From the NCBI GenBank assembly GCA_030951025.1, contig JAUZQK010000076.1, positions 1-33,308 on the forward strand: a stretch of 33,308 bases of DNA. The letters are read 5' to 3'. This document shows, piece by piece, positions 1-8,784 of this stretch. Position 1 is the first letter of the stretch. Each line of letters begins with the position of its first letter. A program made the position numbers and the translations under genes. The stretch comes from Mariprofundus sp. (lineage in GTDB: Bacteria; Pseudomonadota; Zetaproteobacteria; Mariprofundales; Mariprofundaceae). The notes beneath the pieces are model-generated. The model saw only the letters and a list, made by a program, of their open reading frames with translations. It did no database searches and was not told the DNA's origin.

Positions 1-2
1 AT

Positions 3-260
3 GCTACAGTAGAAAACTGGCGCAATGACGATCAATTCGACTATGCTCATATGACGACACTTTTCCACACTTGGCAACAGTTTGATCCGGCTTCGAAACG
101 CCTGTGCATGCAACGCATGCGCGTGCTACTCGATAGAGGATATAGCACTGATGCCAAGCGTGTTTATTATGACTGGGTGCAACAAATCAAGGACGAATAT
201 GGTCTCAAACCATCGGCGCAGGCCATTGCCCTGTCCAACAGGATCACCAGGATTTCCTGA
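3..260 (+). CDS. C-terminal end of a BTAD-type transcriptional regulator (partial)
   Basis: The reading frame is already open at the left edge of the window and ends at TGA 258-260, so only the last 85 codons are visible. The end of the product has alternating amphipathic helices (LLDRGYSTDAKRVYYDWVQQ, then IKDEYGLKPSAQAIALSNRI). The phrase YxxWxxxIKDEYGLKPS followed by a final Leu-rich helix resembles the bacterial transcriptional activation domain (BTAD), where the equivalent is roughly Y..l...L..elGl.Ps.....L...I. BTAD is a TPR-like region found in SARP and related regulators. Any DNA-binding domain would lie upstream, outside the window. The gene points towards the fimbrial locus and could be its regulator, but nothing here shows that. 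An internal ATG at 51 lies in the same frame and is unlikely to be the true start. Confidence 0.55.
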   Translation, partial: ATVENWRNDDQFDYAHMTTLFHTWQQFDPASKRLCMQRMRVLLDRGYSTDAKRVYYDWVQQIKDEYGLKPSAQAIALSNRITRIS

Positions 261-272
261 CTATAAACCGAC

Positions 273-608
273 TCAGAACTCGGTCGTTAGCCAAACCACC
301 TCATCGTGATCTTGTTCACGCTTTTGATGCGGGTCGTAAGAGCGCTGTGAATCACTGTGTGCGTAGCCATTATGTTCTTCATGTTTGCTGCGCCTGTGAT
401 AATAGATTCGATGCGGGGATTCGCCACTACAGCGGATATTATATTGCTCCTGGCGGTTACGCTCTTGCTTGTAATCCACCGCAACCGAGCAATCCGGAAT
501 GACATTCATAGAGACCTGCATGGTAGAGTTGATGCTACGCGCTTGTGCCGTCGAAAAGGCTATTCCAACAGCCAAAAAAGATAATATTAACATCCAGTAA
601 TACCGCAT
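273..608 (-). CDS. Small secreted SCPU-like protein with a His-rich charged tail
   Basis: This is a 111-residue product. The start at 608 is preceded by GAGG about 8 bases upstream and begins a clear signal peptide (MRYYWMLILSFLAVGIAFST, cleavage after AQA). An in-frame ATG at 632 has no better context. The first mature segment (STMQVSMNVIPDCSVAVDY) and the later YNIRCSG resemble the first strands of spore-coat-U domains, including the paired cysteines, but the protein is shorter than a full SCPU domain of about 140 residues. The rest is rich in His, Glu, Asp, Arg and Lys (for example HRRSKHEEHNGYAHSDSQ) and has no SCPU C-terminal strand. It may be a minor subunit, a metal-binding secreted peptide or a decayed subunit gene. 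Its position beside three SCPU genes and an usher supports export to the envelope. Confidence 0.6.
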   Translation of the reverse strand: MRYYWMLILSFLAVGIAFSTAQARSINSTMQVSMNVIPDCSVAVDYKQERNRQEQYNIRCSGESPHRIYYHRRSKHEEHNGYAHSDSQRSYDPHQKREQDHDEVVWLTTEF

Positions 609-772
609 ACTATAACCTCGCCCGCCACTCACACCGGCATGGTTATATTTATCGGCGATTGAATCAGACTCTTTAGTTTTTAGACGTAATTGGCCTTGAT
701 GAACCTCCGCGTTTCCTCTTCACAAGGATCTGCCCTTGGGTTATTGTCTGAATCCGGCTCAGGAGAATATCA

Positions 773-1216
773 ATGACTGAAAGTGAGAAGCGTTACCTTG
801 AAGTATTATTGGAGGAAATGAACGGCAAGTTCAGCCTTGTTTTGGATGGGCATGATGCAATCCGCAAAGAATTCAATGGGCAACTGAATGATATCAAAGA
901 ACAACAACAACTGTTTATGTCCTTGCTCAAAGGCTCTCACAATGAACTCAAAGAAGAGATTCAAGGCGTTCGTACGGATCTAAAAGAAGAGATTCAAGGC
1001 GTTCGTACGGAGCTCAAAGAAGAGATTCGAAGCATTCGTACGGAGCTCAAAGAAGAGATTCGGGGCGTTCGTACGGATCTGAAAGAAGATATTCAAGGCG
1101 TTCATGCTGAGCTGAAAGAGACGCGTGAGGAATTATCGGCCAAGATTGAGGCGGTTGGCGATAAGGTGGAAGGGTATGATGAGCGTATTTTAGCTCTTGA
1201 GAGGGGAGTAGCCTGA
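773..1216 (+). CDS. Coiled-coil protein with tandem 11-residue repeats
   Basis: This is a 147-residue product with no signal peptide or membrane segment, so it is probably cytoplasmic. AGGAG lies 8 bases before ATG 773. The N-terminal part (SEKRYLEVLLEEMNGKFSLV, then LDGHDAIRKEF) resembles a recurrent family of uncharacterised bacterial proteins that share a KFxLVLxGH segment. Residues 59-113 are five tandem 11-residue units of the type LKEEIQGVRTD/E, encoded by 33-bp DNA repeats. The tail continues as coiled coil (LKETREELSAKIEAVGDKVE). Eleven-residue (hendecad) spacing predicts a slightly right-handed or nearly straight coiled coil. No enzymatic motif is visible. The gene stands alone between two minus-strand genes and ends just before a strong bidirectional terminator. 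Function unknown. Confidence 0.8.
   Translation: MTESEKRYLEVLLEEMNGKFSLVLDGHDAIRKEFNGQLNDIKEQQQLFMSLLKGSHNELKEEIQGVRTDLKEEIQGVRTELKEEIRSIRTELKEEIRGVRTDLKEDIQGVHAELKETREELSAKIEAVGDKVEGYDERILALERGVA
947..1111 (+). repeat. Five tandem 33-bp coding repeats
   Basis: Five contiguous 33-bp units follow the pattern CTnAAAGAAGAGATTC, then a variable triplet pair, then CGTTCGTACGGAK. They start at 947, 980, 1013, 1046 and 1079. Units 1-4 are nearly identical and unit 5 has diverged (GAT for GAG, CATGCT for CGTACG). Each unit encodes one 11-residue coiled-coil turn. The array is in frame throughout, so copy-number change by slippage would preserve the protein and only alter its length. Confidence 0.92.
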
Positions 1217-1295
1217 TGTTACAGGCGAGCGCCATAAGCTTATCATCGGGGTAGAACGAAATTTTTGCTTTTGGTTTAAATCCAGCTTAAACATA

Positions 1296-1330
1296 AACGG
1301 GCGGGGGATATCCCCGCCCGTTCTTATTTC
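1296..1330. terminator. Strong bidirectional intrinsic terminator
   Basis: An 11-bp perfect stem (AACGGGCGGGG, 1296-1306, pairing with 1312-1322) has a 5-base loop. On the plus strand it is followed by TCTTATTTC, and on the minus strand by a weaker TATGTTT. It lies between the plus-strand coiled-coil gene and the minus-strand SCPU gene, whose ends converge here, so it can serve both. Confidence 0.8.
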
Positions 1331-1348
1331 ACCATGCAGAGCCTGCTC

Positions 1349-1867
1349 TTAATAGATTACGGTTACGGTTAATATATCGCTCATGGCTCCGATATTAGCA
1401 CCTCCAAAAGCTTTGGCATACACCGTCAGCACCTGGTTTGAACCAGAACCGGTGCCGGCAAGGCTTGCACCACCACCGGCATCGAAGGTGGCGGCACCAC
1501 AGGTAGCTAAAGTATCCGAGTCACCCCATGCCCTGGTGAAGCCTGCGTCAGTATATGTGCTGTAGCGGCGAGATGCTAGACCAGTAGCCATTGTCCGGCA
1601 CGCTCCACTTACCCCTGAATGCAGTCCGCCATCAATACTGATGCTATAAGGCATAGTGCTGGTAGCGTTGACCGTAATTGAGCCTGTTGCCGTTGGAGCT
1701 CCAGTGGTTGTCAGAACATCGCCGAAAGCAATCGCTGTCGTGTTGACCGTAGCTGAGCCGATATTGTTGAGCGACACCGTCATGTTTCCGGTGGTCGTAA
1801 ATGCAAACGCCTGACCGGCGAATAGCATGGCAGCACCGATAGCTGCCAGAATAAATTTACTTTTCAT
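1349..1867 (-). CDS. Secreted spore-coat-U (SCPU) domain protein, fimbrial subunit type
   Basis: This 172-residue product has a classic signal peptide (MKSKFILAAIGAAMLFAG, cleavage after AFA). GAGGTAATAATC precedes ATG 1867. The mature part fits the SCPU family: a first strand TGNMTVSLNN, a central PYSISIDGGLHSGVSGACR, the hallmark RRYSTYTDAGFTRAWGDSD stretch (family form: Y.LYtda..t..WGdg), and a closing strand DILTVTVIY. Two cysteines (GACRTM and ATCGAA) could form a disulfide. SCPU proteins are exported through chaperone-usher systems and assemble into surface fibres or coats. The usher at 4016-6817 is the likely partner. The gene lies 57 bp downstream of the receiver gene on the same strand, and a copy of the 19-bp element lies 68 bp before its start, so it may have its own promoter. 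Confidence 0.88.
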   Translation of the reverse strand: MKSKFILAAIGAAMLFAGQAFAFTTTGNMTVSLNNIGSATVNTTAIAFGDVLTTTGAPTATGSITVNATSTMPYSISIDGGLHSGVSGACRTMATGLASRRYSTYTDAGFTRAWGDSDTLATCGAATFDAGGGASLAGTGSGSNQVLTVYAKAFGGANIGAMSDILTVTVIY

Positions 1868-1924
1868 GATTATTACCTCTTTTTTAGTTTATGTGCACCC
1901 GTAACTGAAGTGAACATGCGCATG

Positions 1925-2305
1925 CTACGATGCCCCAACCGAGAACTGAGCGAGTCGCTTCTGGCATATATGATCTGATGTAACCCATGCAATTACCTGT
2001 TCCGGCTGGAATGGCTTTTGCAGAAAAGGCAGTTCGCCTACATCGGCCTGAGCATTGCGCCCGGAGATCACCATTGTGCGCACTTCAGGGGAACGTAATC
2101 TGATCAGTCGGTGCAATTCCACTCCATTGATTGAAGGCAGGTTGTAGTCGGTGATCAATAATCGCGGTGTCAATTTGTGCTGGTCTATATGTGAGAGGGC
2201 TTCGACTGGATGATTGAAAACATTCACTTGCAGACCAATGTCGGAGAGCAGGCAGGCCAGAAACTCGGTGATATCCTCATTATCATCAACAATGATTAGG
2301 CTCAT
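1925..2305 (-). CDS. Single-domain response regulator (CheY-like receiver)
   Basis: This 126-residue product is a receiver domain alone, with no output domain. The start at 2305 (MSLIIVDDNEDITEF) is chosen because GAGGGGGAAG lies just upstream. An in-frame extension to 2440 would cross a terminator hairpin. Visible receiver signatures are the acidic pair in IIVDDNED, the phosphoacceptor Asp in LLITDYNLPSINGVELH, the switch Ser in TMVISGRN and the invariant Lys in FLQKPFQ. Such proteins relay phosphate from a histidine kinase or bind partners directly. No kinase is in the window. Its place between two SCPU genes on the same strand suggests a role tied to the surface structure, for example in control of its production, but this is inference. 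Confidence 0.9.
   Translation of the reverse strand: MSLIIVDDNEDITEFLACLLSDIGLQVNVFNHPVEALSHIDQHKLTPRLLITDYNLPSINGVELHRLIRLRSPEVRTMVISGRNAQADVGELPFLQKPFQPEQVIAWVTSDHICQKRLAQFSVGAS
1936..1954 (-). promoter_or_regulatory. 19-bp repeated element, copy 1 (upstream of SCPU gene 1349-1867)
   Basis: The plus strand reads CAACCGAGAactgaGCGAG. It matches the other three copies at all 14 fixed positions. It lies inside the last codons of the receiver gene, 68 bp before the start of the downstream SCPU gene, with the CTCGC end leading in the direction of transcription. Confidence 0.6.
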
Positions 2306-2325
2306 ATTTTCTTCCCCCTCTGGCA

Positions 2326-2365
2326 ATAAAAAGCAGGAACAGACGGGATAAACCCGCCTGTTCCT
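2326..2365 (-). terminator. Intrinsic terminator or attenuator in the leader of the receiver gene
   Basis: On the minus strand the arms AGGAACAGGCGGG and CCCGTCTGTTCCT form a 13-bp stem with one A/C mismatch and a 5-base loop, followed by GC and then TTTTTAT. This is a textbook intrinsic terminator. It ends about 20 bases before the receiver gene start and within 10-15 bases of its ribosome site. It may end transcripts from the upstream SCPU gene, or act as an attenuator if the receiver promoter lies above it. Confidence 0.7.
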
Positions 2366-2409
2366 CATCCTGTTCCAAACAAGCAGGACAAGCTGAATCA
2401 TGCACACAG

Positions 2410-2428
2410 CAACCGAGATGCGGGCGAG
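2410..2428 (-). promoter_or_regulatory. 19-bp repeated element, copy 2 (upstream of the receiver gene)
   Basis: The plus strand reads CAACCGAGAtgcggGCGAG. It is oriented towards the receiver gene, 104 bp before its start, and lies between two hairpins. Confidence 0.6.
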
Positions 2429-2434
2429 AAGCAA

Positions 2435-2465
2435 GCCCATAAAACGTTAATAATGTTTTATGGGC
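2435..2465 (-). terminator. Hairpin after SCPU gene 2490-3026, probable terminator
   Basis: A perfect 11-bp stem (GCCCATAAAAC with GTTTTATGGGC) has a 9-base AT-rich loop and starts 25 bp beyond the stop of the upstream SCPU gene. The downstream T content is weak (TTGCTTCT), so termination may be partial. It could also protect the 3' end of the SCPU message. Confidence 0.5.
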
Positions 2466-2489
2466 GCGATAGTTCGAAACAAGATAGTA

Positions 2490-3026
2490 TTAATAATGAA
2501 TTGTAATGGTCACAATATCGGTATAATTCCCTAGCGGCTCGGCGGCACTCGCCTGCCCCTGCGAGGCTGCATAAACCGTAAAGGTTTGGGCGATGCCCGT
2601 GCCGGTAGCAGCCAGCGGCGAGCCAGATGAATATGAACCAGCGAAAGCGGCATCGCCCCATGTGCGGGCGAATGCCGCATCCTGATACAATTCGTAGGGG
2701 CGGAAGAAGCCTGTGCTGGCAGCCATGCGCCGCATCGTTACCGCGTGTAATCCGGCATCCAGGGTAATATGATAGGCGTAGCCGGCAGACACAGTAACCT
2801 GAAATGTTCCGCTGGCGGTGAGTGTAGTGGTCGGATTTGTGGATACACCGAAATTAATCTGGCCGCTGTTGACAATCACCTGCGGTGGCACCGAAACCGA
2901 GACCGAGAGATTCGTGTTATTGCTGGCGGCCTGCGCTGTGAACGTGCAAATGGCGGACAGCATGCAAGCGTAGATGGCAAGTCGATTAATCATCATTGCC
3001 TGCCTATGTTTGATGGCAAAGCCCAT
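2490..3026 (-). CDS. Secreted spore-coat-U (SCPU) domain protein
   Basis: The start at 3026 is preceded by GAGAGGGGG at good spacing and gives 178 residues. An alternative start at 2996 or 2993 (MMINRLAIYACMLSAI) also has a purine-rich site (AGGCAGGCA). Either way a signal peptide ends after TAQA. The mature part follows the SCPU plan: TNLSVSVSVPPQVIVNSG, INFG, a Y-x-I-x-L-DAGLH segment, FFRPYELYQDAAFARTWGDA (the family WGD hallmark) and the final strand IVTITIHY. It lacks the usual cysteines in the mature region, unlike the subunit at 6810. The closest relative in the window is the subunit at 1349-1867. It is divergent from the chaperone gene, with a large inverted repeat between them. Confidence 0.87.
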   Translation of the reverse strand: MGFAIKHRQAMMINRLAIYACMLSAICTFTAQAASNNTNLSVSVSVPPQVIVNSGQINFGVSTNPTTTLTASGTFQVTVSAGYAYHITLDAGLHAVTMRRMAASTGFFRPYELYQDAAFARTWGDAAFAGSYSSGSPLAATGTGIAQTFTVYAASQGQASAAEPLGNYTDIVTITIHY

Positions 3027-3093
3027 ATATCCCCCTCTCTCGCCTCATTTGCAGCTATCTGTTCACTATGAATCGACGCATTGAAACATCATA

Positions 3094-3112
3094 CAACCGA
3101 GAAGCAGGCGAG
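3094..3112 (-). promoter_or_regulatory. 19-bp repeated element, copy 3 (upstream of SCPU gene 2490-3026)
   Basis: The plus strand reads CAACCGAGAagcagGCGAG, 67 bp before the start of the SCPU gene at 3026. This spacing is almost the same as for copy 1. Read towards the gene, it is followed directly by TATGAT, a plausible -10 hexamer. Confidence 0.65.
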
Positions 3113-3133
3113 TTGAAACGCACTTGCGTCAGT

Positions 3134-3152
3134 CTCGCCTGTTTCTCGGTTG
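3134..3152 (+). promoter_or_regulatory. 19-bp repeated element, copy 4 (upstream of the chaperone gene)
   Basis: The plus strand reads CTCGCctgttTCTCGGTTG, the reverse complement of the other copies. It faces the chaperone gene, which starts 44 bp downstream, and is followed directly by TATGAT as copy 3 is. Confidence 0.65.
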
Positions 3153-3196
3153 TATGATTGCATGATGCGCAGCACCAAACAAGCAGGAGAGATAAG

Positions 3197-3976
3197 ATGA
3201 AATTAAATCATATTTTAACGGCCATGCTGTGTTGCATGGCAGTCAGCGGCATCGCATCAGCCGGTTCATTCAATGTTTACCCGACTCGATTAGAGCTGGA
3301 GGCGGGCACCAGCATTGGCAGTGTGACCGTAGTCAATGAGAGTGATGCGCTGGCTAATATGCAGGTGCGCGCCGTGCGCTGGAAGCAAGGTGAAAACGGT
3401 ACGGATGCCATGCAGCCGACTCAAGAGCTGACTTTTTTCCCCAAGATATTCCGGCTGCCGCCGCATGCAAAGAAGGTGATTCGGGTCGGTTATCAGGGCA
3501 AGGCGCTGCCGAAAGAGCGTGCCTTCCGATGATTTATCCGCGAACTGCCGGTGGATGAGTCGGGCAAGATGGGCATGAAAATGGTGGTGCAGATTAGTAT
3601 GCCTGTGTTTATCCGGCCTGCCGGTGCCAACAAGGTGCCATTGCCGAGTGTGAAAGGCATTAGCATTGTTGATGGCAAGCTGGCTGGTTGGCTGGAGAAT
3701 AGTGGTCTCCGCTATTTGATGGCCAGAAAACTGGATGTCAGCGGCAGCAAAGGGGGCAAGCAGACATATAGCGGAACGGCGCAGGGCTGGTATGTATTGG
3801 CAGGCGTGAACAAGGCATTCCCTTTGAAGCTGAGCCGTAAGGATTGTCTGAAGATGGATAGCATTCATATATCAGTGCCGTCAGATAACGGCAAAATTGA
3901 AGCCAGTTTCCCTATCTCTGCAGACTTGTGCCAAGGCATCCGCAAGCAGGTTAAAACCAAGGCAGATACGCACTAG
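3197..3976 (+). pseudogene. Periplasmic pilus-assembly chaperone, interrupted by an in-frame TGA
   Basis: ATG 3197 follows AGGAGAGATAAG and begins a signal peptide (MKLNHILTAMLCCMAVSG, cleavage after ASA). The product is a PapD-type chaperone: SFNVYPTRLELEAGTSIGSV, VTVVNESDALANMQVRAVRW, LTFFPKIFRLPPHAKKVIRV (the basic residue and alternating hydrophobics that cap subunits) and then FIRELP. The stop TGA at 3530-3532 falls inside the conserved YR-[LV]-F-[IV]-R-E-L-P strand (AFR-stop-FIRELPVDES). The same frame continues to TAG 3974-3976 with domain 2 intact. One base change from a Leu codon (TTA or TTG) would explain it. With the stop the product is 111 residues, lacking domain 2. If real, this disables the chaperone unless the stop is read through. 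A sequencing error is the main alternative. Confidence 0.82.
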
Positions 3977-4015
3977 GCCGTTGTAAAGCATGCCTGTAGA
4001 TCATGCGGATTGAGC

Positions 4016-6817
4016 GTGAAAAACTTCGATTTTTTGATGCCGGATATCCGGCCGTGCCTGCCTGTCCTGTTTTTTTGCGCTTTGTTGCTGCCGCATCAGG
4101 CATGGGCAGGCGCTAAATCAGTGATGCCAGAGTTGGCTGGCAAGGCTGAAGTATCGGCACGGCTCGATGCCAATAAGGAACAGCAGGCACAGCAGGAACA
4201 GCGCTGGCTCATCCATTTGATCGAATACAAAGAGCGAGCGCAAGCGGATGCTCTGGTGACGCGGTTGGGCTATAAAAATTTTAATGCTTCTGTCGCAGAT
4301 CTTGGTTCCGGTCGCTATCAGGTGCGTATTCTGAATCTGTCCGGTTATGATGATGCCGTTGTTTATCGTCAACGGCTGCTGCAGAAAACCAATATTTTTC
4401 CAGCTCATATTCAAATTGTTGCGCAGGCCATTGACCCCACCCCTGCAACTTCAACGCATCTTGCGCAGTCGCCGCCGGAGAGCCCACCAACGCCCGAAAC
4501 GGCTGCCGCTGCAGAAACTGGCGCGGCGCAGTTGAATTCCGCTATTTTCCACGTCATCGTCAATGGCGAGGATCAGGGCGAACATTTTTTTCAGCTTGAT
4601 GAGCAGGGTGAGATCTGGGCTACGGTGGCTACGCTCAAAGAGCTGGGTGTATCCGGCATTCCGGCGCTGGCGGCAAATCCGACGGATAAACCGCTGGCAT
4701 TTGCCAGTATCAAAAATGAAATGCGATATCAACTCGATACAGAGAATGGTGAATTAAGCCTGACGCTGCAGCCCAAGTGGTTGCAGGCTCGGCAGATACC
4801 CTTATCTGAAGAGCAGCGGCATGACACTGAGATGCTCAACGCCAACTCGGTATTTCTTAATTACAACGTCAATTATGCGTGGGCTCAATCTAGCGCAAGC
4901 CGAACAGTATCTGCACCGCTGGAGTTGGGTATGCGCATTGGCGATTTGTTTTTCTCGGCCAATGGCGATTACTCCAGCCTCAAAGTTGGCCGCAAGCACT
5001 GGACGCGAACACAGACTCAACTGCTATGGGATGATCCGGAACACCTGCTTCGGTTGACTGCCGGCGATGTGTTGTCTTCAACAGGAGCTGCGGGAATCGG
5101 GGCTGCGCTGGGCGGCATCACTGTGGCCAGGGAATTCGGGCTAAAGCCTTATCAGGTGAATACGCCCCAAACATCATTCAATCTGATGCTGCCTACGGCT
5201 TCGGATTTGGAAGTGTATGTCAACGGTAATCTGGTTAAACAGGAGCATGTATCGCCCGGGCCGCTGACGTTAAGTAATCCGCCGTTTTCTGAGGGGCGAA
5301 GCGACGTTGAAATTGTCATTCGGGATGCCTTTGGGCGTGAAACAAGGCGCAGCTTAGCTTATTATTATTCGTCGCAACTGCTTGTTCCGGGGCGATCTGA
5401 TTTTAGCTATAGTCTGGGCTCACCGCAACAGCGCAACGCCCTTGGCGAGTTAGCCTATACCGGTTCACCGGTGGCGCTGGGCTATCATCGATTGGGTTTG
5501 ACTCGCTGGCTGACGACTGGCGCGCACGCCGCCTACAAGGGAGGGCGGCTCAATGGCGGACTCTCAGCCGATCTGATCACCGGCACCGTGGGGACGATGA
5601 ACCTGCTAGTCTCTGGTAGCACAGGCGGTGGTGCGCACGGCATCACTGGATCGGCGAATTACAGCCTGACTGCTTGGGACGCGTTTTCACCCAGTCTGTT
5701 TCTGCGCGCCACCACGCCTGCTTATCGGACTGTATTTCAAAGCAAAACGTTAACACAAGCTGCCAGATGGGAAGCCGGCGGCAGCTTGGGATTTAGTCTG
5801 TTTAATCTCGGTAACCTGTCGGGCAATTACCGGCAGCGCTGGCTCCAAAGCGGTGTTCGTGAACGAGATATTTCCACTTTTTATTCGGCACAGCTCTTTG
5901 CCGGCATCGGTCTAACACTGAGTGGCAGGTGGCGCCATGATTCAGCAACGCAACATACGCAGGAGAGTTATTCGCTGGGCATGAATCACCATTTCAGCAA
6001 TGGTGTTTCACTAAGCCTGAGCGGTAATAGAAACAATGGCATACTAAGCGCCAGCATACAGATACAACTCTCCCCTCCGCTCGGTGAAGGCTTCGGTTAT
6101 GCCTTGCAAGCGAGCAAGAGTGAAGCTTCACAGCAATTCGATTCATCTGATCGAATCACATGGCGGAATAGATATAGCGACTTGAGCCTGAGCCGATCCG
6201 GTAATACTCAATCGGCCAACTACACGGCATCAGGAAGCGGGGCTCTGTCTTTTATTGATGGCAGCCTCTCTCCATCGAGGCCAATCAGCGGCGGCTTTGC
6301 CCTGGTGCGCACTGATGGCATGGCAAATATCCCCGTGAGCTACAACAATCAGTTGGTGGGCACGACCAATAGCAAGGGAGAATTGCTGGTGCCTGAGATA
6401 ATAGCCTATAATGACAATGCCCTGAGCATTGATATCGGCAGCATGCCAATGGGCTATCAGGTGGATGCCACCAGTCGTAATATCAGCGTGCCTTTTCATA
6501 GTGGAGCCGTAGTCAATTTCGGCGTGCATAAAATCCAATCGGTGGAAGGAGTGCTGTTTATTCATGATAGCAAGGGCGATAAGGCGGCAGTATATTATGG
6601 GCTGGAGCTTATTCAGGGCGAGCAAAAGCGTTCGAGCATTGTTGGTGACGGCGGCGAATTTTATATTGAGAATGTGCGTGCTGGAGAATACAAGGCACGC
6701 TTGTTTAACGAACAGAGGGAGTGTCAATTCATGATGCTTATTCCTGAAAGTGACGGAGCATTTATTAAGTTAGGTAAACTTACTTGTACAATGAAGAAGG
6801 AGAAAACACATGATTAA
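4016..6817 (+). CDS. Outer-membrane usher with an N-terminal SPOR-like domain
   Basis: The product has about 933 residues. The start is uncertain among TTG 4010, GTG 4016 (weak GGAT upstream) and ATG 4037. All give a signal peptide ending after HQAWA. Residues about 63-136 (QRWLIHLIEY, then ALVTRLGYKN, GRYQVRILNLSGYDDA) look like a SPOR-type fold, followed by a Pro/Ala-rich linker. The usher proper begins near residue 176 with FHVIVNGEDQGEHFFQLDEQ (PapC N-domain). The beta-barrel and plug region includes DLEVYVNGNLVKQEHVSPGP and DVEIVIRDAFGRETRRSLAYY, and C-terminal domains start near GGFALVRTDGMANIPVSYNN. Ushers pull subunits from the chaperone and secrete them. SPOR domains bind denuded peptidoglycan, so the extension may anchor the usher to the wall. 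It lies 39 bp after the chaperone and overlaps the next subunit gene by 8 bp. Confidence 0.9.
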   Translation: MKNFDFLMPDIRPCLPVLFFCALLLPHQAWAGAKSVMPELAGKAEVSARLDANKEQQAQQEQRWLIHLIEYKERAQADALVTRLGYKNFNASVADLGSGRYQVRILNLSGYDDAVVYRQRLLQKTNIFPAHIQIVAQAIDPTPATSTHLAQSPPESPPTPETAAAAETGAAQLNSAIFHVIVNGEDQGEHFFQLDEQGEIWATVATLKELGVSGIPALAANPTDKPLAFASIKNEMRYQLDTENGELSLTLQPKWLQARQIPLSEEQRHDTEMLNANSVFLNYNVNYAWAQSSASRTVSAPLELGMRIGDLFFSANGDYSSLKVGRKHWTRTQTQLLWDDPEHLLRLTAGDVLSSTGAAGIGAALGGITVAREFGLKPYQVNTPQTSFNLMLPTASDLEVYVNGNLVKQEHVSPGPLTLSNPPFSEGRSDVEIVIRDAFGRETRRSLAYYYSSQLLVPGRSDFSYSLGSPQQRNALGELAYTGSPVALGYHRLGLTRWLTTGAHAAYKGGRLNGGLSADLITGTVGTMNLLVSGSTGGGAHGITGSANYSLTAWDAFSPSLFLRATTPAYRTVFQSKTLTQAARWEAGGSLGFSLFNLGNLSGNYRQRWLQSGVRERDISTFYSAQLFAGIGLTLSGRWRHDSATQHTQESYSLGMNHHFSNGVSLSLSGNRNNGILSASIQIQLSPPLGEGFGYALQASKSEASQQFDSSDRITWRNRYSDLSLSRSGNTQSANYTASGSGALSFIDGSLSPSRPISGGFALVRTDGMANIPVSYNNQLVGTTNSKGELLVPEIIAYNDNALSIDIGSMPMGYQVDATSRNISVPFHSGAVVNFGVHKIQSVEGVLFIHDSKGDKAAVYYGLELIQGEQKRSSIVGDGGEFYIENVRAGEYKARLFNEQRECQFMMLIPESDGAFIKLGKLTCTMKKEKTHD

Positions 6818-7250
6818 AACCGGATTCAATATATTGATGATGTTGGGCTTCATCTTTCTGGCTGCTACTATTTCCAAGGCTGGCTGCATTGTGTCAACGA
6901 CACCGGTGGTATTCGGCACTTATCTGGGTTCAGCAGCGCTTGGTAGCACCGGCAGCATTACAACCAGCTGCACCGGCTTGCCTATTGTTACGGCGGTGCA
7001 GGTCTATATGGATGCAGGCCAACAATTGCCAGCCAGCTTTGCAGCAAGAAAAATGAAATCGCAATCCGGCCAGTCTCTGAGCTATAATCTCTACACCGAT
7101 GCGGCTCATACCCAAATATGGGGCGATGGTACACCAGGCACATTCAGCCCACAGGGGTTTGATCTGACTATTTTTGGGCAGATGCCAGCAGGCCAGCCAA
7201 CAGCACCTGGAAATTATAGTGATTCGGTATTGGTGACTGTAATTTGGTAG
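6810..7250 (+). CDS. Secreted SCPU-domain subunit coupled to the usher
   Basis: This is a 146-residue product. It begins 8 bp inside the end of the usher gene, with GAAGGAG upstream, so translation is coupled. A signal peptide (MIKTGFNILMMLGFIFLAAT, cleavage near SKA) is followed by GCIVSTTPVVFGTYLG, an SCPU start with a cysteine pairing to SITTSC. The rest matches the family: YNLYTDAAHTQIWGDGTPGT and the last strand SVLVTVIW. Of the subunits here it is nearest to a canonical SCPU protein. The Cys next to the cleavage site could suggest a lipobox, but the preceding residues (ISKAG) fit poorly, and a disulfide is more likely. It is last in the chaperone-usher operon, directly before a terminator. 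Confidence 0.88.
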   Translation: MIKTGFNILMMLGFIFLAATISKAGCIVSTTPVVFGTYLGSAALGSTGSITTSCTGLPIVTAVQVYMDAGQQLPASFAARKMKSQSGQSLSYNLYTDAAHTQIWGDGTPGTFSPQGFDLTIFGQMPAGQPTAPGNYSDSVLVTVIW

Positions 7251-7319
7251 CTGCGGTTGCCGAATCCTTTCGGCACCTCATGCTGGTTCACTTGCATCCA
7301 TCTCCTTGATACATACCTG

Positions 7320-7346
7320 GCGAGGTCATTGCCTCGCATTTTTGTT
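7320..7346 (+). terminator. Intrinsic terminator of the usher operon
   Basis: The stem GCGAGG (7320-7325) pairs with CCTCGC (7332-7337), has a 6-base loop and is followed by ATTTTTGTT. It overlaps the last bases of the convergent gltD gene. On the other strand the stem follows AACAAAAAT and has no T-run after it, so it mainly serves the plus strand. A weaker stem (GCCGAA with TTCGGC) lies just upstream, near 7258-7273. Confidence 0.65.
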
Positions 7347-8784
7347 AGCGCGGCAGGCTGGTAGATCCCATGAGGAATTGATCAACCGCACGGGCACATT
7401 GGCGGCCTTCGCGAATAGCCCACACCACCAGCGATTGACCACGGCGCATATCACCAGCGGCAAATACTTTATCGATGCTGGTGGCATAATCGCTATCGTT
7501 GGCTGCGACATTGCCACGGCCATCTTTGTCCACGCCCAGCTCTTCTAGCATGCCTTCATGGATGGGGTGAACAAAACCCATTGCCAACGTAATCAGCTGA
7601 GCCGGCAGTTCGAATTCGGAACCTGCAATTTCATTCAGTTTCCATTGTCCGCCGTCGTCCTGCTTCCATTCCACACGCACACATTCGATAGCCTGCACAT
7701 TGCCTTCAGGATCACCAATAAAACGTTTGGTGGAGACTTCCCAATCACGTTCACAGCCTTCTTCCTGTGATGTGGAGGTGCGCATTTTCATCGGCCAGTT
7801 TGGCCAGGTGGTGAGTTTATCGGGATGATCGGTTGGCCTCGGCATGATTTCCAATTGCGTCACTGATAATGCGCCATGACGGTTGGAGGTGCCGATGCAG
7901 TCCGAGCCTGTATCACCGCCACCGATCACCACCACATGTTTACCCTTGGCCGATACGAATTCTTCTTCGGGAATATCATCACCCAAGACACGGCGGGTGT
8001 TTTTAGTTAAGAACTCCATAGCGAAATGTACACCATTCAATTCACGCCCCGGTACGGGCAGATCACGTGAATCTTCCGAACCTCCGGTGAGTAGCACGGC
8101 ATCGAAATCATTTAACAGCTCTTGCGTGGAAATATCCTTGCCAATATGAGCATTGACGCGGAACTCCACACCTTCGGCCTGCATCTGGGCCATGCGGCGA
8201 TCAATGACGGACTTATCGAACTTGAAATTCGGGATACCGTAGCGCATCAATCCACCGATGCGGTTGTTCTTTTCAAACAACACCACATCGTGACCCACAC
8301 GTGCCAGCTGTTGTGCAGCCGCCATACCGGCAGGGCCTGAGCCCACGATGGCGATACGTTTGCCCGTTTTATGCTCGGCGATTTGTGGTTTAATCAAACC
8401 ATCCGCCCAGCCTTTTTCGACAATGGCCAGCTCGATGTTTTTTATGGCAACCGCATCACCAATCAGGTTGACCGTACACGCTTCTTCACACGGGGCAGGG
8501 CAGATACGCCCGGTAAATTCCGGAAAGTTGTTGGTCGAGTGCAATACTTCCAATGCTTCGGCCCATTGGCCTTTGTACACCAGATCATTCCAGTCCGGGA
8601 TGATGTTGTTGATCGGGCAACCATTATGACAAAACGGAATGCCGCAATCCATGCAGCGCGCACCCTGGGTGGCCATATCGTCCGGTAATTTGGAGAACTC
8701 TTTGAAATGCACCAGACGTTCAGCCACCGGTGCATAGGATAAATTCTCACGTTCGAATTCTTTGAACCCTGTTGGCTTACCCAT
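7345..8784 (-). CDS. gltD: Glutamate synthase (NADPH) small subunit
   Basis: This 479-residue product is of the usual length for the family. It supplies electrons from NAD(P)H to the large subunit for reductive transfer of the glutamine amide to 2-oxoglutarate in the cytoplasm. The N-terminal cysteine clusters for two [4Fe-4S] centres are visible ([14 protein letters not shown] and CPAPCEEAC). The FAD-binding [20 protein letters not shown] lies near residue 149, with a second dinucleotide fold at [17 protein letters not shown], and the C-terminal [20 protein letters not shown] is the FAD-contact segment typical of GltD. The gene overlaps the end of gltB by 8 bp, so the two are translationally coupled in the order gltB-gltD. 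Confidence 0.97.

Follow-up and report, generated by a model that had tools for sequence, protein, structure and literature searches.

A tandem-repeat element as the probable operator of a SARP-type activator at a chaperone-usher pilus locus of Mariprofundus, with a candidate antisense RNA

A 19-bp element recurs four times in the SCPU chaperone-usher pilus locus of Mariprofundus sp., in a window of 33,308 nucleotides (the whole stretch of DNA that was analysed, contig JAUZQK010000076.1). It is quite likely the operator of a SARP-type activator encoded at the same place, through which the pilus genes would be coordinated; we infer binding and activation from the sequence. The locus comprises, on the minus strand, the genes of SCPU pilin A (1349-1867), a protein with a single receiver domain (1925-2305) and SCPU pilin B (2490-3026), and on the plus strand a periplasmic chaperone frame (3197-3976), the outer-membrane usher (4010-6817) and SCPU protein C (6810-7250); pilins A and B, the receiver protein, the usher and protein C were assigned by Pfam matches.

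The preliminary description of this DNA had claimed four copies of the element with identical fixed bases. A pattern scan located the exact element at 1936-1954 (+), 2410-2428 (+), 3094-3112 (+) and 3134-3152 (-), and confirmed all 14 of 14 fixed bases in each copy (copies 1 to 4). With up to three mismatches allowed, 9 matches were obtained against 2.24 expected, and at least 9 were reached in 0 of 100 shuffles. The genome-wide scan proposed in that description found the exact element only at those four sites of the 2.2 Mb assembly, together with 2 more matches at one mismatch and 7 at two. Since the loose matches were about as frequent as those of the reversed control (13 versus 14), only the exact copies stand out in the assembly. 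Outside the window genome the exact 14-base pattern occurred four times, twice at SCPU loci, once in genome G021 away from such a locus, and once in G068; with one mismatch it was present in 48 of 100 relatives, scattered and unspecific. The plain 14-base pattern, which at one to two mismatches did not exceed its reversed control in the window genome, was consequently rejected as a genome-wide marker, and a composite pattern including the -10 hexamer was used instead.

Read in gene direction, which is the minus strand for copies 1 to 3 and the plus strand for copy 4, the element has the form CTCGC-N5-TCTCGGTTG in the window and, more generally, CTCGS-N6-CTCGGTTG, a direct repeat with an 11-bp period. 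Because CTCG recurs 11 bp apart, the element is a tandem repeat and not a dyad; the two half-sites suggested earlier are such repeats. The distances of 68, 104, 67 and 44 bp are correct for gene starts at 1867, 2305, 3026 and 3197, and copy 1 does lie in the coding end of the receiver gene, overlapping its last codons (stop at 1925-1927). That each copy precedes a different gene holds for copies 1, 3 and 4, and fails in this simple form for copy 2, where a terminator comes before the receiver ATG.

Ten SCPU stretches (125,888 bases) contained 26 CTCG-N7-CTCG sites, whereas 50 first-order shuffles gave 1.3 on average and never more than 4. Three of these stretches (L057, L069 and L070) have no site, two of the 26 sites overlap in a triple repeat of L047, and L044 to L047 were found through the motif itself; L059 and L060, taken for their SCPU genes, carry 3 and 4 of them. 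In 171,722 bases of background sequence, chosen in part for its motif matches, there were 6 sites. A TAnnnT hexamer lies exactly 8 bp past the 19-mer at 18 of the 26 sites, which are partly related and hence dependent, with all four genera contributing; the other 24 offsets together account for 12 cases, and none of the 6 background sites has the hexamer at this place. In the window, one of the four sites has it at +8 (copy 1, TAGCAT at 1927-1922). CATGAT is found at +8 after copy 4 (3161-3166) and at +7 after copy 2 (2402-2397), and copy 3, directed towards pilin B, is followed at +8 by the weak hexamer TTCAAT. The TATGAT directly abutting copies 3 and 4, noted in the preliminary description, is present there but is not a conserved arrangement, and it was rejected as the -10 hexamer because TAnnnT occupies offset 0 at 3 of the 26 sites as opposed to 18 for +8.

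A 17-bp spacer would place the -35 hexamer on positions 5-10, within the variable N5, and therefore no conserved -35 box exists here. With a transcription start 7 bp beyond the hexamer, the 22-bp box would span about -39 to -18; for the afs box the excerpted text of PMC10936776 gives -40 to -19. The same excerpt states the rule for SARP promoters, direct repeats 11 or 22 bp apart with the 3' repeat 8 bp from the -10, and heptamers separated by 4-bp spacers are described in the excerpt of PMC5930380. Direct repeats with an 11-bp period are likewise found here, with the 3' repeat 8 bp from the -10-like hexamer at the 18 sites, the window contributing one of its four. The rigid spacing, and a conserved part that ends 8 bp before the hexamer, could also suit the recognition sequence of an alternative sigma factor working without any activator. 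This reading appears very improbable, since the -35 hexamer of a 17-bp spacer would land on variable bases and a tandem repeat reaching to about -39 suggests two protein subunits. In L047, three consecutive CTCG repeats follow each other at 11-bp steps (4688-4716), comparable to triple SARP operators.

Copies 3 and 4 form the two arms of an inverted pair of 25 bp (3088-3112 and 3134-3158) and point outward, each towards one of the divergent genes, pilin B and chaperone, that flank them. We considered and rejected a reading of 3088-3158 as a terminator or a hairpin in RNA: the gap between the facing copies is 8, 0, 8, 9 and 8 bases in five relatives and 21 in the window. With these gaps, and with each arm directed to its own gene, back-to-back promoters fit better than a hairpin. 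Rfam microRNA matches at 3088-3158 were far below the gathering score. A separate near-perfect inverted repeat of 15 bp with a 1-base loop lies just upstream of copy 2 (2435-2465).

SCPU genes were detected in 7 of the 74 genomes of the family (G000, which is the window genome, G007, G017, G033, G044, G048 and G101). The element is present in the SCPU loci of six of them, the window genome and five related Mariprofundaceae, upstream of SCPU pilin and chaperone genes, and all six have the facing pair between pilin B and the chaperone. The seventh, G017, has no element across its 8.3 kb SCPU contig, where the pilin and chaperone genes are on one strand. The composite pattern CTCGS-N6-CTCGGT-N10-TANNNT gave 13 matches in 78 genomes of the class, every one on an SCPU contig (of G000, G007, G044, G048 and G101), and its reversed control gave 6 matches in 5 genomes; the sites of G033 depart from the strict composite form. 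The earlier proposal of a dedicated operator coordinating the locus is thus well supported, since other genera also keep the element at their SCPU and chaperone promoters, with a fixed spacing to a -10-like hexamer. The pilin B leaders between element and gene are about 300 bases long in L059 (4728-5029) and L060 (14248-14559) and contain internally repeated segments. The SCPU chaperone-usher locus of L057 (G017:C153), from the same genus, is of a different kind, without the element or a SARP of this type and with a NarL-type regulator.

Two possible controllers had been named, the receiver protein and the BTAD-type protein at the left edge. The latter is favoured by the 11-bp repeat, the 8-bp spacing to the -10 and its SARP-like relatives; the receiver protein is unlikely to bind DNA, the receiver domain being its sole Pfam match. 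The window contig begins at base 1 inside the BTAD gene, leaving a C-terminal part (3-260, plus strand) with a BTAD match above the Pfam cut-off and without the winged-helix part. Full-length SARP-like genes stand in the SCPU loci of G048, G101 and G033, and the window fragment aligns to the C-terminus of their products, so that four of the six element-bearing genomes have such a gene in the element locus, the cut window copy included. A SARP of this type was not found in G007 or G044, element-bearing genomes whose assemblies are both fragmented, nor in G017; a weak match in G007 is a different, longer protein at a contig end. G017 lacks the element in its SCPU locus and also lacks this SARP, which counts for a SARP operator.

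The three full-length relatives have BTAD above the cut-off at the C-terminus, Trans_reg_C below the cut-off and no receiver domain. The predicted fold of the SARP-like protein (pLDDT 76, pTM 0.60) best matched the PDB structures of AfsR and then EmbR, which together with the Trans_reg_C match points to an N-terminal OmpR-like winged helix; a profile search of the PDB sequences matched AfsR alone. BTAD matches as such occur in 24 of the 74 family genomes, mostly in larger proteins; the one of G017 lies in a 1070-aa frame on another contig, to which the SARP profile gave no match. This profile matched 5 of the 78 class genomes, the longer protein of G007 included. A contig scan for relatives of the regulator returned 3, all in Zetaproteobacteria metagenome assemblies of the window's family. 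In a wider search, 14 of 398 phylum genomes matched at 1e-6, 5 of them in the family; tblastn found no SCPU gene in the 2.4-3.7 kb around the 12 SARP matches outside the family, stretches that are too short for coupling to be dismissed. In both G048 and G101, the SARP gene lies 3' of pilin B on the same strand, and it may therefore share the pilin B operator.

The main rival to the SARP is a response regulator of the NarL/LuxR type, whose gene accompanies those of 7TM histidine kinases near several loci and which would bind the element while the SARP acted elsewhere or downstream. Such regulators have matches on the SCPU contigs of G101, G048, G044 and G033, and G044 is a genome where no SARP was found; kinases adjoin the response regulator in L060 and L047. 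However, a NarL-type regulator is also encoded on the SCPU contig of G017, which has no element, the best match in the window genome is 30% identical and on another contig, and no match was obtained in G007 at 1e-20. Furthermore, the 11-bp tandem and the 8-bp spacing are the geometry reported for SARPs in the excerpt of PMC10936776. We hold this alternative to be unlikely. The genes beside the pilus loci of these relatives, at 4399-6889 of L060 and 44-3180 of L047, are a NarL-type regulator with 7TM sensor kinases, or paired kinase-like genes.

On the favoured SARP reading, two protomers would sit next to each other, one on each 11-bp repeat, over the place of the absent -35 box, and the bound SARP would bring RNA polymerase to a weak -10 hexamer that lies 8 bp downstream. 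The back-to-back sites would serve the divergent pilin B and chaperone-usher genes, and copy 2 would drive a short RNA. OmpR/PhoB-type response regulators place a winged-helix domain on tandem repeats of about 11 bp; the protein here would share these traits but has a BTAD domain and no receiver domain. Antibiotic clusters of actinomycetes are the targets for which SARP activators are best known (PMC10936776). In the excerpted texts, the SARPs of the AfsR/afs box and PimR heptamer systems combine, as here, a winged helix with BTAD and use tandem repeats of 11-bp period, in which the 3' repeat stands 8 bp before the -10 and the box occupies the -35 place (PMC10936776, PMC5930380). Unlike these SARPs, the one described here would act on another repeat sequence, in a zetaproteobacterial host, on pilus rather than antibiotic genes, and has no additional C-terminal domain.

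Downstream of copy 2, and entirely upstream of the receiver ATG, follow CATGAT, TGTCCTGCTTGTTTGGAAC and a strong intrinsic terminator (2335-2365, minus strand). We propose that they belong to a small RNA (2335-2390, minus strand, with a tail that may reach about 2326) made of a 5' hairpin with an antisense seed and then the terminator hairpin. The 14-nt seed (2375-2388) is the exact complement of 3175-3188 on the plus strand, in the chaperone leader with its Shine-Dalgarno region, which is the target predicted from complementarity. In the whole genome there are exactly two occurrences of the complement CCAAACAAGCAGGA, one in the RNA and one in the chaperone leader over the Shine-Dalgarno sequence. 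Positions 2326-2390 fold into two hairpins (z -6.69, much of the score coming from the terminator). No match to the curated Rfam covariance models, up to E 1 in window positions 1-7500, overlaps 2335-2390.

Similar arrangements were found in two relatives. In G033 the same 18-mer and a like fold (z -3.90) come after an element at 4504 of L047, and the chaperone leader is complementary over 11 bases. Among 78 genomes this 18-mer is exact in G000 and G033 only; with up to two mismatches it occurs in 8, the six non-exact cases being at the control level (6 hits). In G007 the RNA lies between a divergent element and pilin B; it has CUUGCUUGG in place of the CUUGUUUGG of the others, and its chaperone leader has CCAAGCAAG in place of CCAAACAAG, one A-U pair being swapped for G-C. 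The contiguous complement between each RNA and its own chaperone leader is 14, 11 and 10 bases in the three genomes, and it was equalled by 0 of 13252, 0 of 6962 and 0 of 9080 other 40-base windows, respectively; the G007 RNA was noticed via a search for such complements, which biases its own score, whereas its element position and hairpins were unselected. Covariation among the three sequences (4 pairs changed on both sides versus 2.0 in shuffles, a value reached by 44 of 500) is suggestive only. The other three chaperone leaders are without CCAARCAAG, and the model R1 finds no RNA in those stretches; across 22 sequence sources it recovered the three founding copies and weak others.

Duplex energy was rejected as a target test, being not discriminating. 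The RNA-leader duplexes had modest z values against shuffles (-2.08, -1.67 and -3.34), with stronger values at some other sites because the tested stretch there contains the leader itself. By rank, the leader in the window fell below three self-complement windows and one other place, and in G033 and G007 it was outside the best 14. In cross pairing, the RNAs of G000 and G007 paired best with their own target and that of G033 better with the other two. The seed bases are partly paired in the RNA fold, and mostly so in G007.

These modest energies and poor ranks, and the preference of the G033 RNA for other targets, leave room for a different interpretation, namely that the RNA serves the receiver gene as an attenuator leader, or is simply the place where pilin B terminates, and that the match to the chaperone leader is shared or due to chance. 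The terminator does sit between pilin B and the receiver gene, and although the element and a -10-like hexamer are upstream of the RNA in all three genomes, the T tract is good in the window and short in G033 and G007. Several observations weigh the other way. A different gene comes after the RNA in each of the three genomes (the receiver gene, a pilin gene and pilin B), which speaks for an independent RNA rather than an attenuator. Each RNA has its longest uninterrupted complement in the chaperone leader, CCAAACAAGCAGGA has no third occurrence in the genome, and in the three genomes with leaders devoid of CCAARCAAG the stretches examined contain no such RNA either. An attenuator or pilin B terminator is a serious possibility, slightly less likely than not. 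What copy 2 drives is probably a non-coding RNA, either in place of the receiver gene or ahead of it.

With the independent RNA, we tentatively propose that this zetaproteobacterial SARP may run an incoherent feed-forward loop on the chaperone-usher pilus, one operator type serving to activate the pilins, the chaperone-usher genes and an RNA of about 60 nt that acts as a damper; we infer binding, transcription and repression beyond the facts of the sequence. The SARP on its tandem repeats would activate all three together. Near the 5' end of the chaperone-usher mRNA, the 5' stretch of the RNA would mask the Shine-Dalgarno region and hinder ribosome loading, so that usher and chaperone would be produced in a pulse or be capped relative to pilin. 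The receiver protein could still be made from transcripts that pass the terminator. Between genomes the RNA gene would have moved within the locus, operator and target match being kept.

Csu-type (archaic) chaperone-usher pili consist of SCPU pilins, a PapD-like chaperone and an usher, as does the locus described here. Among the matches listed for the regulation of Csu-type pili, two-component and other regulators were found and no SARP was seen. Titles and abstract beginnings of the matches listed for BTAD or SARP with pili or fimbriae held nothing evident on a SARP controlling such pili, and a term search in the main text of two reviews of fimbrial regulation retrieved neither SARP nor BTAD. 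Among the papers searched, none combined Zetaproteobacteria and chaperone-usher, and the sole match for Mariprofundus and sRNA concerns, by its title, saliva integrons. A SARP regulon dedicated to a pilus in an uncultured zetaproteobacterial lineage would extend both the SARP family and the known regulation of SCPU-type pili. As far as the excerpted sources go, fimbrial functions are lowered by trans-acting RNAs, PapR acting on papI, RseX and MicA on fimB and RybB on fimA, in the manner proposed here; unlike in these cases, the predicted target would be the chaperone-usher leader, and RNA and target would share one operator type. If real, the RNA would complete a compact circuit, activator and damper under one operator, with a target readable from the sequence.

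Further features were observed in and beside the pilus locus. The chaperone frame has an in-frame stop at 3530-3532, after which it continues to 3976, and the corresponding frames of L045, L046, L059 and L060 are uninterrupted; the stop may be an assembly error, mark a pseudogene or be real. A small secreted-looking protein is encoded at 273-632, with no CTCG-N7-CTCG element upstream of its gene in the window; a 71-residue stretch of it is 39% identical to a sequence near 6842-7042 of L047. Adjoining the pilus locus, positions 773-1216 encode a coiled-coil protein with repeated KEEIQGVRTDL-like units.
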